A stretch of 64,000 bases of DNA, from positions 1 through 64,000 of the IMG/VR virus record IMGVR_UViG_3300042471_000650; one strand, given 5' to 3'. Position 1 is the stretch's first letter, and each line of letters starts with the position of its first letter. Made by a program: the position numbers and the translations under genes. This document shows positions 46,586 through 51,796 of the stretch, piece after piece. The notes below the pieces were generated by a model, which was not told where the DNA came from, searched no databases, and saw nothing but the letters and a program-made list of their open reading frames with translations. The stretch comes from a virus.

Positions 46586-47140
46586 TCAGCTATCTGGAAA
46601 TCTTGAATCATCGTCAGCGTCACCAGTAATGCTACTACCAGCAACTAATACTTCACTCTTAACTCTGAAGTTGCCATGATTGTCAACATAAGTTGTAACA
46701 CCAACCCATCCAGCGTGAGCAACTGCATAAGCAGCATTTTTACCACCGACAGTTCTTCCGGCAGCAACTGTTGCTTCAGTAGTACCTACACCAAATACTG
46801 CAGAGAATCTACCACTCTTTACATCAGGAGCAAAGTACTGCCCATCTTCAAGAGTGTACTTTGGTTTTTGATTTACTGTGTAAGCAACGCCAGCAATTGA
46901 ACCATTAAGAGGAATTAAGAACTGGGTTGAACCAATAGAAAGTTGCGTAGCAGAAGTTACTCCAGTAATTACTGCCTGACCATAAGTAGCTCCGGCGCCA
47001 ACAACCAAAATATCGCCAGCTGAAATTCCAGCAGTTACGAAAGTTGTACCACTTCCAGTTACTACTTCAGTAGCAAGATTGATTGTTATAGTTCCTGTAA
47101 GACCCGTGCTAAAAGAATCTTTATTGCCCCAAAGAGACAT
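46586..47140 (-). CDS. Virion structural protein
   Basis: The 184-residue protein starts 'MSLWGNKDSFSTGLTGTITI' and is rich in G, T, V and A with short beta strands ('VTGSGTTFVTAGISAGDILV'). The MSLWGNKD opening is seen in several cyanophage virion proteins. A perfect late promoter lies 32 bases upstream. Probably a head or tail decoration protein. Confidence 0.65.
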   Translation of the reverse strand: MSLWGNKDSFSTGLTGTITINLATEVVTGSGTTFVTAGISAGDILVVGAGATYGQAVITGVTSATQLSIGSTQFLIPLNGSIAGVAYTVNQKPKYTLEDGQYFAPDVKSGRFSAVFGVGTTEATVAAGRTVGGKNAAYAVAHAGWVGVTTYVDNHGNFRVKSEVLVAGSSITGDADDDSRFPDS

Positions 47141-47457: not shown

Positions 47458-48981
47458 TCAGTCAGATTCACCAGCTCTTGGTTTGTACATATCTTGTGCC
47501 CTTCTTTCTGCAGCAGATTGTTGTACTTTTTTCTTTGCAAGTCTATCTGCTGTAGTTTGACCTTTTGGTGTGGGAGCACCAGGAGTCTTTTTGACTCCCC
47601 TTTCACCTTCATGTTGAGCAACCGTTTTTCCACTTCTAGTCATAAGACCTTGACGAGTGCTTGGCATTTTTCTTAGCATTTCTATAGCACGATCACGTGG
47701 TTTTCTTTGAGTTCCTTTTTCTTCACGTCTTCTTTCATCAAGAATTTCAGTTTCTTCTGTTGAAACCATCACAATAGGATTTTTAGCACCCATCGCTCTT
47801 GCATAATTTTTGGCAAGATTAACTGCGGTTGGAAGGGATCTAGGATCCTTTTCTTCCATTTCCTTTTTTGCTTTATTGTCTGCTTGAGTAACAGTTTCTT
47901 CCTTCATAGAAGTTTTCTTTTCAGGAAGTCCTTTATGAGAAGTTTTAGCAAACTTTTTAGCTTCCTTTTTACTCATTCCAGAAGCTGCCTTTGCAACCTC
48001 TGGAGATGCTGGCATTTCACCTTTCTTTGCAGCGTAAACCATTCCCATAAACTTTTGTTGTGCTTTGCTTACTGCTTTTTCAACAACAAAAGATCCTTTA
48101 ATATCATAATGTGCTAGTTGCATACCATAATTAGATTTTCCACTGTTTGATCCTGGCGCTTCAGGATTGACCTTTACTGTATTTTTTCCTTTCATCACAT
48201 CAATCTTTTTTGCATTTGCATCAGGATTGGATGATTCATCATTAACTTCGCCAATGTATTCTTCCTTTACACTCGAAGTATCTTGACCGTCTGGGGTTCC
48301 ACCTTTTTTACGCTGAATAGCGTTGTGAACTGCACCACGATATTCTTTAGCACCACTTTCTACTTTACCATCTCCATCATAATCTTTTCCTGCTTTTGCT
48401 CTTGCAGTTTGCTCACCCTTCTTCTTTTCACCTTCATAAGGTTCGCCATAACCAGTCATTTCAACTGATTCAATATTTGAATTTGCACGAAGTTCACTAA
48501 TCTTTTGACGATCTGCATATCTAACATATGAACGACCGTCCTTTCCAGTAACTCTAACTTTATATTTTTTATGCTCCGAAGTTTCTAACTTCTCCATATA
48601 AGTTAAACGAATTGGTTCTTGCTCCTCTTGAACCCCTTCAACAAATACTTTAAAGAGTGCGTTTGCTACGCTAGAAGAAGCTAAATCCTCAATGTTAAAA
48701 TCTTCTGCTTGCATACCACCTTTACCAAAAAGTTTTTGCTTTACTATCGTTTTTTCTTGCTGACTCATACTACTGTTTTGCATATATTGAGTGTATGCTT
48801 GGCGAAGAGGAAGTTCTTCTCTCCTAGCTCTATAACGAATATCGTAAATTGCTTGCTTTGCTCTTTTTTCTGGAGATTTTCCACCATCTTTTTTCCCTTC
48901 TTCACCACCCTTTTCAGATGAAGGTGCCTCAACTGGCGAGTGTTTTCTTGCTGGAAGCTCTTCAGCAATATGTTTTTTCAT
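47458..48981 (-). CDS. Large charged virion or internal head protein
   Basis: The 507-residue protein is highly charged, with long K/E/G/P stretches. Residues 300-350 hold 'EKAVSKAQQKFMGMVYAAKK' and 'SPEVAKAASGMSKKEAKKFA', a DUF3008-type block found in cyanophage proteins. The N-terminus 'MKKHIAEELPARKHS' contains I-A-E, which fits the gp21 cleavage consensus. Composition suits a protein inside the head. A CATAAATA element lies 33 bases upstream. Confidence 0.6.
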   Translation of the reverse strand: MKKHIAEELPARKHSPVEAPSSEKGGEEGKKDGGKSPEKRAKQAIYDIRYRARREELPLRQAYTQYMQNSSMSQQEKTIVKQKLFGKGGMQAEDFNIEDLASSSVANALFKVFVEGVQEEQEPIRLTYMEKLETSEHKKYKVRVTGKDGRSYVRYADRQKISELRANSNIESVEMTGYGEPYEGEKKKGEQTARAKAGKDYDGDGKVESGAKEYRGAVHNAIQRKKGGTPDGQDTSSVKEEYIGEVNDESSNPDANAKKIDVMKGKNTVKVNPEAPGSNSGKSNYGMQLAHYDIKGSFVVEKAVSKAQQKFMGMVYAAKKGEMPASPEVAKAASGMSKKEAKKFAKTSHKGLPEKKTSMKEETVTQADNKAKKEMEEKDPRSLPTAVNLAKNYARAMGAKNPIVMVSTEETEILDERRREEKGTQRKPRDRAIEMLRKMPSTRQGLMTRSGKTVAQHEGERGVKKTPGAPTPKGQTTADRLAKKKVQQSAAERRAQDMYKPRAGESD

Positions 48982-48990
48982 GAGGAAACT

Positions 48991-50307
48991 TTACTTCTTA
49001 TTTTTTCTATACTTATTTATGAAATTAAGACCGTATGCTCTTCCACCTTGTTGAAGATTTTCCTTTCCCGTGCCAATTGCACCTGGTGTTTGCTTTGCAG
49101 CATACTTAAAATATCCCAAGGTTCCAACTAAAGTATTTGGTTTTCCTGGTTGGCGATATTCTTTATCCATTTTAACTTCCGTATATTCACGTAAGTCTTT
49201 AATCCAAGATTTGAACATTTGACCAGATTCGGTGACACAAATCAAATAATTAGTGCCTCTGCGAATAATACGTCCCATTAATCCAGTATTCAAATTTTCA
49301 ACTACTTCGCCAATTTTGAAAATAGATTCTGTAATATAATTTTCACGAAGAGATTGAAAATCAAGTTTAGGTGCAATTTCCCAAATATCCCAACCTTCCT
49401 TCACATTCATCGCACCACGAAGAATATTAAATAATTCCTTTGCTTCTGCTGGTTTGACTTCTGGGGGAAGACCTGAACGGAAAGTTTTAAAATCTCCTTC
49501 TGCTGCAGCAAGTCTCATTCTTGATGCAGACATTCCTTCAACACCCTTTGCATCAGGATCTCTGTCTCCAGCAGAAACTACTTCAATATTATCAAAGTTA
49601 TAAAGTTGCCCATTATACTGGTTAGAAAGTTTTTCAAATTCCTTAACTCTATCAGCACCACCAATAATTCTTACCCCAGCATATCCATTATTATGCGCCA
49701 TTTTTAAGACATCAAAAATTGTCTTTGTATTGGCATCATTTACAATATTTCCAGCGTGCTGTGGATAAAACTTTTGCATATAAGCAATCTTTGTATCAGG
49801 ATCAAGAGGATTCTTTTTCTTATCCTGACTTCTTGATGGGAAAATTAAATATTCACCACCATCTTCCTGCGCCGCAGATTGTGCTGCAACATCCATTAAT
49901 TGTTGATGTCCAATTGTGGGAGGATTAAAACGTCCAAATGCAATTGTCAAAGTGCCTTTAGTTTTTGGAACTGGAAGATATCGTGCCGGTGGTTGCTCCT
50001 GTGCTGCTGCTTGTTGCTCTGGTGCAGGTGGTTGCTCTGCAGGCGCCTGTTGTTGAGCGGATTGTTGAGCAGTTGCTGGATCTTGATATCCAGGAGAAGC
50101 AATTGTTTTTTCCTTTTCTGTTTGTTTTGGATCTTTTGCCCCAACTCTTTGACGCTTATTATAAAACTTGAGTTTTCCACCCTCTGTTTTTGCGACAAAC
50201 TCACCTTGACGGTCATACCATCCTCCGTGCCCGTCTCCAACAAGACCAAGACGTTGTGCTTGTTGTGAGGCAGATGCTTCTGATATAAATTGGAAAAAAC
50301 TTTTCAT
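48991..50307 (-). CDS. Nucleotidyltransferase with capsid-targeting-like N-terminus
   Basis: The 438-residue protein starts 'MKSFFQFISEASAS', closely like the capsid-targeting leader of T4 internal protein III (MKTYQEFIAEA), with I-S-E at the expected cleavage point. Residues 60-110 are a Q/A/P-rich linker. Residues 115-300 are a cytidylyltransferase-like fold with 'TIAFGRFNPPTIGHQQL' (the xxGH nucleotide motif), 'VRIIGGADRVKEF' and 'GMSASRMRLAAAEGDFKTF'. The C-terminal part is a small beta domain. NMN or phosphopantetheine adenylyltransferase relatives share these motifs. I infer it may be packaged in the head. Confidence 0.7.
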   Translation of the reverse strand: MKSFFQFISEASASQQAQRLGLVGDGHGGWYDRQGEFVAKTEGGKLKFYNKRQRVGAKDPKQTEKEKTIASPGYQDPATAQQSAQQQAPAEQPPAPEQQAAAQEQPPARYLPVPKTKGTLTIAFGRFNPPTIGHQQLMDVAAQSAAQEDGGEYLIFPSRSQDKKKNPLDPDTKIAYMQKFYPQHAGNIVNDANTKTIFDVLKMAHNNGYAGVRIIGGADRVKEFEKLSNQYNGQLYNFDNIEVVSAGDRDPDAKGVEGMSASRMRLAAAEGDFKTFRSGLPPEVKPAEAKELFNILRGAMNVKEGWDIWEIAPKLDFQSLRENYITESIFKIGEVVENLNTGLMGRIIRRGTNYLICVTESGQMFKSWIKDLREYTEVKMDKEYRQPGKPNTLVGTLGYFKYAAKQTPGAIGTGKENLQQGGRAYGLNFINKYRKNKK

Positions 50308-50347: not shown

Positions 50348-50355
50348 TATTTATC
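50348..50355 (-). promoter_or_regulatory. Late-like promoter (GATAAATA)
   Basis: GATAAATA, one base from consensus, 40 bases before the nucleotidyltransferase ATG and just after the stop of 50358-51692. Confidence 0.45.
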
Positions 50356-50357
50356 AA

Positions 50358-51692
50358 TCATTCTAATTTATAATATGGAGCAGAATAAGTTGCTTGAGAG
50401 CTAGCATAAAGATAAAAATCTTGCACCACATTATCTCTGGTTTCACCAGATATTGAATTTATTATTTGAAATAACTTCATAACAAGATATTTCGAATACC
50501 TATACTTATTTGATTTTTTTTGTATGGCATCTGCAATATCTTCAATTTGTTGTGGTTTAATTATACCATTTTGTGCCATTAATTGAGATATATTCATACA
50601 ATGCTCTATTGTATTTTTTGTAGCAAGAGAAGCTGATTCCGTAGAAGATGGAATTTCCGATAATCCATATCTTCTTAAAATAAAATTTATTGGACCTAAA
50701 GAAATTTTTCCTTGATTAGCAGATGCACCTTTAATTTCTCCCTGCCAACCTGTCAAAGATGTTTCGCCACCAAAACTTCTAAATTGAATTTTTTCATTAT
50801 TAAGAGATCCCCATTGGATATATCCATCCATAGAATCTACATTACTAGTTGTTCCATAAAATTTTGCCTTATTTACTTTCGTATCTGCTGGAAAATTTTT
50901 CTTTGATATTTTTCCACTACCATACATTTTTTTAAGAGATACACCAATGACTTTATTATTTTGGATAAAGTCATACATTTTAGCATTTAATGATCTTAAA
51001 GATCTCTCTTGACTTAATTCCCCCAAATTAGCATTATTACTGATCAGGTAAATATCTGCTGGACTCCATTTATTTAAATTTCCAAATGCCTTTTCATCTT
51101 TATTAATTCTACTAAAAACTGACTCAATTAGTGAAACTTCACTAGAACCTCGGTGAAACGTAAAAGTTCCTTTACCCCTAAAGGTTCGGTATAAAGCATT
51201 TGCACCCAAAATAGATGAATTTATCCAATCATCAGGAAGATCATTAATTATACTTTGGAGAGAAGAATCAATTAATGCTGTAGATGATGCCTTTACAAAA
51301 TTATCTTTTGTAACATCTATAATACTCATTTCCCTTTTCAAAACATTAAATACAACTGCCGCATATAATGCTTGTGCAGATTCGGATAATTTTGTAAGAG
51401 CAGCACCTGCCCCAGATCCCCCACCTCCAGATTTTTTATAAATTAACTTAATTATCGATGCAGATTTCGGTAAAACAATTTTAGTTACTGGAAATGATGA
51501 TTCACTTTTATCAATTTCATTTTTAAAATTAATTCTTCTTGCCTTCAATTGTTTAGATATATTATCCTGATCTTCTGCTCTTTGTGATGATATTATTCTA
51601 ATCTTATCTACCTTTGGTCCAGTTTTAACAACTTTAGTTTCATATCCGGACAACACAGAATTTAAAGCCAATAATATCTCCGAATCCGTCAT
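50358..51692 (-). CDS. Hypothetical protein (444 aa)
   Basis: The protein starts 'MTDSEILLALNSVLSGYETK' and has a Gly/Ser linker 'KSGGGGSGAGAAL' near 88-100. The rest is a mixed fold with 'SPADIYLISNNANLGELSQE' and a helical C-terminus. I recognise no family. Location among late genes suggests a virion or assembly role; the central block could be nuclease-like, but I cannot point to catalytic residues. Confidence 0.5.
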   Translation of the reverse strand: MTDSEILLALNSVLSGYETKVVKTGPKVDKIRIISSQRAEDQDNISKQLKARRINFKNEIDKSESSFPVTKIVLPKSASIIKLIYKKSGGGGSGAGAALTKLSESAQALYAAVVFNVLKREMSIIDVTKDNFVKASSTALIDSSLQSIINDLPDDWINSSILGANALYRTFRGKGTFTFHRGSSEVSLIESVFSRINKDEKAFGNLNKWSPADIYLISNNANLGELSQERSLRSLNAKMYDFIQNNKVIGVSLKKMYGSGKISKKNFPADTKVNKAKFYGTTSNVDSMDGYIQWGSLNNEKIQFRSFGGETSLTGWQGEIKGASANQGKISLGPINFILRRYGLSEIPSSTESASLATKNTIEHCMNISQLMAQNGIIKPQQIEDIADAIQKKSNKYRYSKYLVMKLFQIINSISGETRDNVVQDFYLYASSQATYSAPYYKLE

Positions 51693-51723
51693 AGATCTTT
51701 TTTATTTTATTTTTATTTAGAAG

Positions 51724-51796
51724 TGCCCGTGAGAAGATTCGAACTTCCACTGTATGGATTCTAAGTCCACCCTCTCTACCATTGGAGTACACGGGC
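51724..51796 (-). tRNA. tRNA-Leu (UAG), short variable arm
   Basis: A 73-nt cloverleaf: acceptor GCCCGTG/CACGGGC, D arm CTC/GAG, anticodon arm GTGGA-CTTAGAA-TCCAT with anticodon UAG, T arm GGAAG-TTCGAAT-CTTCT, discriminator A. The variable arm has only five bases, whereas bacterial leucine tRNAs normally have a long one. It lies alone between two late genes. Confidence 0.8.

Follow-up and report, generated by a model that had tools for sequence, protein, structure and literature searches.

A nucleotidyltransferase with a T4-type capsid-targeting leader as candidate head cargo of a T4-like cyanophage relative

The gene and its surroundings

The stretch of DNA analysed here (the window, 64,000 nucleotides) belongs to a 78-kb virus record that is a metagenomic fragment, and its source virus is a relative of the T4-like cyanophages. 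On the minus strand, at positions 48,991–50,307, an open reading frame with an ATG start, and with its stop codon within these coordinates, encodes a leader-bearing nucleotidyltransferase of 438 residues. The product belongs to phrog_395 (E 5e-103) and to cyanophage cluster T4-GC190, with 42% identity to SSM1_190, which carries the T4-GC190 label as does S-PM2p142; in the literature on the family its members are named ‘citidylyltransferase’, ‘cytidylyltransferase’ or NMNAT. The closest isolate for this protein is S-SRM01, a Synechococcus phage from a freshwater reservoir (66%, tblastn), whose gene order agrees with that of the window: nrdB, nrdA, primase and, further along, mazG, helicase, recA and polymerase.

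The protein is composed of distinct parts, all encoded on the minus strand. Residues 1–10, MKSFFQFISE (50,278–50,307), form a leader of the capsid-targeting type with a predicted cut between E10 and A11, and a ‘DGHG’ module recognized by profile search occupies residues 13–61 (50,125–50,271); this module is also found on a virion kinase of S-CREM2 and on a Cas9-annotated nuclease. The linker at residues 62–115 (49,963–50,124) is rich in Q, A and P, which make up 33 of the 55 residues at 61–115, is fast-evolving as judged by pN/pS, and is predicted, with low pLDDT, to be disordered. The nucleotidyltransferase domain extends over residues about 116–300 (49,408–49,962), as delineated by PF01467, AlphaFold2 and Foldseek, and contains the nucleotide-binding motif GRFNPPTIGH (residues 125–134; 49,906–49,935) and a second active-site motif of the SxTxxR type, SASRMR (residues 260–265; 49,513–49,530). 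A small, mostly beta domain at residues about 317–375 (49,183–49,359), defined by secondary structure, phrog_4808 and S-PM2p144, is followed by a C-terminal tail of lower conservation. The counterpart of this beta domain in S-PM2 is a stand-alone small protein, S-PM2p144. Public records and PHROGs label the domain or S-PM2p144 ‘ribonucleotide reductase alpha subunit’ or NrdB, apparently a propagated misannotation, with the true nrdA and nrdB lying elsewhere.

The gene is part of a block devoted to replication and nucleotide metabolism and lies between nrdA and mazG. Its upstream neighbour (50,358–51,692, minus strand) encodes a 444-residue homologue of S-SCSM1 gp282 (39% over 452 columns, E 4e-89), an annotated virion protein, and its downstream neighbour (47,458–48,981, minus strand) encodes 507 residues, of which 303–356 match S-SCSM1 gp279, also annotated as a virion protein (75% over 55 aa). 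Gene order had raised the suspicion that the products of 46,586–47,140 and 47,458–48,981 are homologues of the S-SZBM1 virion proteins gp136 and gp139, and blastp gave no match. Immediately upstream of the 444-residue gene is a tRNA-Leu (window positions 51,723–51,796), and S-SCSM1 has a tRNA-Ala at the corresponding place, beside gp282.

A late promoter-like motif, ATAAATA (50,348–50,354, minus strand), stands 47 nt upstream of the start codon, and the downstream neighbour has a late promoter-like ATAAATA of its own, 39 nt upstream. The published consensus for late promoters of cyanophages, NATAAATA (PMC2984593), has this heptamer at its core. Its total of 19 copies shows no excess over the 22.6 expected by chance; the motif is informative by position only. 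In this respect it ranks first among 21 heptamers of the same composition, with 65% of the contig's copies and 48% of those in S-SRM01 falling 25–60 nt before an ORF start, against heptamer medians of 3–4%. Among the genes around it, nrdA, nrdB, mazG, gp41, uvsX and gp43 all lack an upstream ATAAATA. The copies are split by strand as well, 18 on the gene-rich minus strand of the window versus one on the plus strand, and 91 versus 7 in S-SRM01; this distribution by strand and position is usable as a late promoter map. An exact ATAAATA precedes the homologous gene in 40 of 79 cases in clade 1 and in 2 of 76 in clade 2, whose homologues are perhaps read from a promoter further upstream.

Enzyme domain and candidate substrates

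The earlier note on this DNA had described a Q/A/P linker joined to a nucleotidyltransferase, and both parts of that description agree with what we find. PF01467 (CTP_transf_like) matches residues 122–225 at 26 bits, above its gathering cut-off of 21, and score, fold and both catalytic motifs place the protein in this superfamily. Seven residues of the first motif (G125, R126, N128, P129, P130, G133 and H134) and four of the second (S260, A261, S262 and R265) are invariant in 61 homologues. The AlphaFold2 model, with pLDDT of about 80–93 over most of residues 117–300 and a whole-protein pTM of 0.45, has a nucleotidyltransferase fold. In Foldseek the model matched NadD 8aih at E 2e-6 and numerous structures of CoaD at E values from 2.5e-6, with target TM mostly 0.6–0.7; these matches came from fold comparison alone, a sequence profile search of solved structures having given no relative. 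Homologues in unrelated jumbo phages align over the enzyme domain only, the one in Serratia phage BF being as short as 172 residues, and this suggests a catalytic role.

The fold and the motifs GxFxPx(H/T)xGH and SxTxxR are common to NadD/NMNAT and CoaD (PPAT). The window protein differs from NadD/NMNAT in scoring below the NCBIfam cut-offs for NMN/NaMN adenylyltransferase equivalogs (TIGR00482, 16.2 versus 112 bits; TIGR01526, 14.6 versus 341) and in having T131 where the first His is usual. CoaD likewise has T in place of the first His. A search of the contig, which is a fragment, gave no NAPRTase or NadV partner. An Alt-type ADP-ribosyltransferase like that of T4 was rejected, PF01467 being the sole Pfam match at E up to 1. 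Of the earlier suggestion of an enzyme acting on NAD or another cofactor, the nucleotidyltransferase fold is borne out, and no specific cofactor is singled out, with NadD and CoaD matching about equally. In our judgement NMN or NaMN is a tentative choice of substrate with a little under an even chance, phosphopantetheine is rather unlikely, and some other substrate is a real possibility to which we give limited credence.

The leader and its occurrence on virion proteins

The resemblance of the N-terminus MKSFFQFISEA to T4 internal protein III, proposed in the earlier note, is borne out by the T4 record, which reads MKTYQEFIAEA for IPIII. Substitutions in T4 IPIII gave most weight to residues 4 and 7 for targeting and to residues 8 and 10 for processing (PMC9026906). 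Residues 4 and 7 of the window protein are both aromatic (F, F), and F4, F7 and E10 are invariant across 61 aligned homologues, the most distant of which are 36% identical. The leader has in common with the IPIII CTS its aromatic residues at 4 and 7, I/L at 8, E10 and A11, and the gene, by its late promoter-like motif at a typical distance, may share late-type expression. The window protein differs in being an enzyme of another fold with a 49-residue module after the leader, and for it cleavage and ejection are proposed steps. In clade 2 (S-SZBM1-like) the leader reads MRFRQFIIEA, shorter by one residue; because the patterns used to gather these homologues lie outside the leader, it is not a search artefact. 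For leader, enzyme domain and linker, pN/pS is 0.20, 0.21 and 0.44 in clade 1 and 0.31, 0.21 and 0.62 in clade 2; in both clades the leader value is near that of the enzyme domain and roughly half the linker value. The tight leader pattern occurs on 156 homologous genes versus 2 antisense false matches at the same loci. As judged from these comparisons, the resemblance is not a product of chance.

The same note had placed the end of the leader, I-S-E, at the head protease consensus, and I8-S9-E10-A11 does fit [IL]xE/A at positions 8–11 (the slash marks the cut). The predicted site FISE/A resembles the T4 major capsid protein site FLTE65/A, and the same pattern occurs in the capsid proteins of S-SRM01 (SFLSEAS), S-CREM2 (GLLTEAP) and S-SZBM1 (GILTEAA), and as FLYEA or FLYES in those of five sister contigs. 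These five contigs are the relatives tested for a gp21-type protease and a capsid protein, and all of them encode both; in one, the homologue shares 98% identity with the window protein. When the contig itself, a fragment, was searched for Peptidase_S77 without a positive control, there was no match, and in the literature searched we found no N-terminal peptides showing leader cleavage for any cyanophage. Judging by the site, the leader is probably trimmed after Glu10.

Homologues of the window protein have been found in virions. By mass spectrometry (MS), cluster T4-GC190 was detected in S-SM1 (Sullivan 2010, PMC3037559), and homologues were detected in S-SCSM1 (PMC9602691) and S-CREM2 (gp154; PMC10665884); the virion table of S-SZBM1 includes another, with emPAI 0.26 (PMC9146016). 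All four carry the leader, their N-termini reading MKKFSAFLNEA (S-SM1), MKSFLQFLKEA (S-SCSM1), MKNFSSFLTEA (S-CREM2) and MRFRQFIIEA (S-SZBM1). With the window protein they share family, leader and a similar gene neighbourhood, and they show no difference in kind, the S-SRM01 protein being the closer relative. S-PM2 encodes a T4-GC190 member, yet this was listed as undetected (Sullivan 2010, PMC3037559); the protein, S-PM2p142, begins VFLATATMDNISAKSG, without the leader. S-PM2 is a single natural control, and its proteomics are older.

The leader also occurs on other proteins. In S-CREM2 the tight pattern is found on four coding sequences, namely the gp154 cytidylyltransferase, the gp14 kinase, the gp6 SAM hydrolase/lyase and gp13, all four MS-detected (hypergeometric P 0.003). 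The patterns were tuned by eye, and enrichment P values and chance numbers are therefore approximate: below 0.01 tight matches are expected per genome (any-position background) and 0.2–0.7 wide ones, varying with background. The pattern initially lacked F at position 8, and widening it added gp136, which is also MS-detected; the tighter count is the fairer number. Looser matches, such as gp37, were dropped. The Cas9-annotated, MS-detected gp12 has LRFASFMAEA from residue 17, possibly reached through a later start. Tight-leader coding sequences number four in S-SRM01 and three in S-SZBM1; S-SZBM1 gp191 and gp192 bear the leader, yet are absent from its virion table (PMC9146016). Leader-bearing proteins of S-SRM01 include gp270 (447 aa), gp208 (102 aa) and the small, cysteine-containing gp61 (67 aa); gp208 resembles S-SZBM1 gp191, whose gene is in the same region of structural genes. 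The contig carries a second leader-bearing protein, outside the window (65,292–65,852, minus strand), of 186 residues beginning MKTFQEFMVEC. It matches PF23780 (S-AdoMet_lyase) at 28.5 bits versus a cut-off of 28 and is related to S-CREM2 gp6, which is MS-detected in virions; on sequence grounds, a packaged anti-restriction enzyme is possible.

The DGHG module is similarly shared. A profile of residues 13–60 matches the S-CREM2 kinase (domain E 1.3e-16) and the Cas9-annotated nuclease (domain E 1.3e-17), and a search in the opposite direction, started from the copy on the kinase, leads to cytidyltransferases across cyanophages; leader and module thus travel together between enzymes. The ME01 kinase has two copies of the module. 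ACG-2014f gp185 (892 aa), annotated ‘cytitidyltransferase’, is by blastp similar to the window protein over leader and module alone (48 aa) and probably represents another kind of enzyme joined to that packaging region. The module is not required for packaging, since it is missing from clade 2 and from S-CREM2 gp154, both of which have the leader. More broadly, we see an even chance that T4-group cyanophages carry modular cargo, in which the leader, often with the DGHG module, is set on varied enzymes (adenylyltransferase, Ser/Thr-type kinase, Cas9-annotated nuclease and SAM lyase) to make up a host-modifying kit that every head would carry and deliver before phage gene expression.

Head-packaged cargo and the alternatives

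We consider it likely that the gene encodes a late-made head cargo enzyme, targeted by its leader, trimmed and ejected with the DNA. The gene would be expressed late; by means of F4 and F7 its product would enter the core of the prohead and then be cut after Glu10 by the prohead protease, a gp21 homologue. The mature enzyme would remain in the head beside the DNA, be ejected with it into the next cyanobacterial cell, and adenylylate or cytidylylate a small cofactor precursor as infection begins, with precursors like NMN/NaMN or phosphopantetheine the most likely. The earlier note had spoken of an enzyme both packaged in the head and injected. Packaging through a T4-type leader is well supported, by the conserved positions, the late motif, the published MS of four homologues and the undetected, leaderless S-PM2 protein; injection with the DNA we infer by analogy with T4. 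The idea of a head-packaged enzyme delivered with DNA is that of T4 Alt, an injected ADP-ribosyltransferase. The window protein differs from Alt in having no ADP-ribosyltransferase Pfam match and in following the IPIII leader pattern, and it would modify a small cofactor precursor, whereas the target of Alt is RNA polymerase.

A leader that targets the prohead could also belong to a head assembly or core protein, an IPIII-like scaffold partner whose nucleotidyltransferase domain binds a ligand or is inactive. T4 IPIII itself affects head assembly (PMC9026906), both flanking genes have S-SCSM1 homologues annotated as virion proteins, and S-SZBM1 virions contain a modest amount of the homologue (emPAI 0.26, PMC9146016). 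Such a structural role is nonetheless improbable: both catalytic motifs are invariant down to 36% identity, pN/pS in the enzyme domain is low, and the jumbo-phage homologues, down to 172 residues long, align over that domain only. The product could also be a routine auxiliary metabolic enzyme working in the cytoplasm, its leader-like N-terminus incidental and its homologues contaminants of virion preparations. This would suit the location of the gene between nrdA and mazG, and the MS authors do name strongly expressed enzymes as possible contaminants of CsCl preparations (PMC10665884, PMC9602691). Against it stand the 156 homologous genes with the leader versus 2 antisense false matches, a promoter-like motif of late rather than early type, the leaderless S-PM2 homologue undetected in virions (PMC3037559), and the absence of nrdA and nrdB from the S-CREM2 virion table (PMC10665884), and of the alternatives we hold this one the least probable.

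An enzyme packaged by its leader might also never leave the head, working in the developing prohead or just trapped there. The literature searched contained no cyanophage ejection data, and most core fragments leave the T4 head (PMC9026906); T4 proteins and reporters with such a leader are, however, ejected (PMC9026906), and it is not obvious what an adenylyltransferase would modify inside a prohead, making retention very unlikely, if a shade less so than a cytoplasmic role. For the cargo enzyme that we favour, virion association of homologues and a possible NAD role are known already, delivery and a role in NAD having been speculated in the S-SCSM1 and S-CREM2 papers (PMC9602691, PMC10665884). 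The leader, its invariance at the positions functional in T4, the lack of a leader on the S-PM2 protein, the late promoter-like motif and the occurrence of the leader on other virion enzymes appear unreported in the literature searched, and we found no mention of the leader in the S-SM1, S-SZBM1, S-SCSM1 and S-CREM2 papers.

Cyanophage virions have time and again yielded enzymes such as kinases, a SAM lyase and an NMNAT-like protein, with authors undecided between cargo and contamination, and a conserved targeting leader offers an answer to how virion enzymes would enter the head. With it, cargo of uncultured phages from the sea and from fresh water could be recognized by a sequence rule. Should precursors of NAD or CoA be the substrates of the enzyme, its arrival with the DNA could allow the phage to influence host cofactors before transcription begins, and such early influence, if true, would be relevant to NAD-based anti-phage defences.
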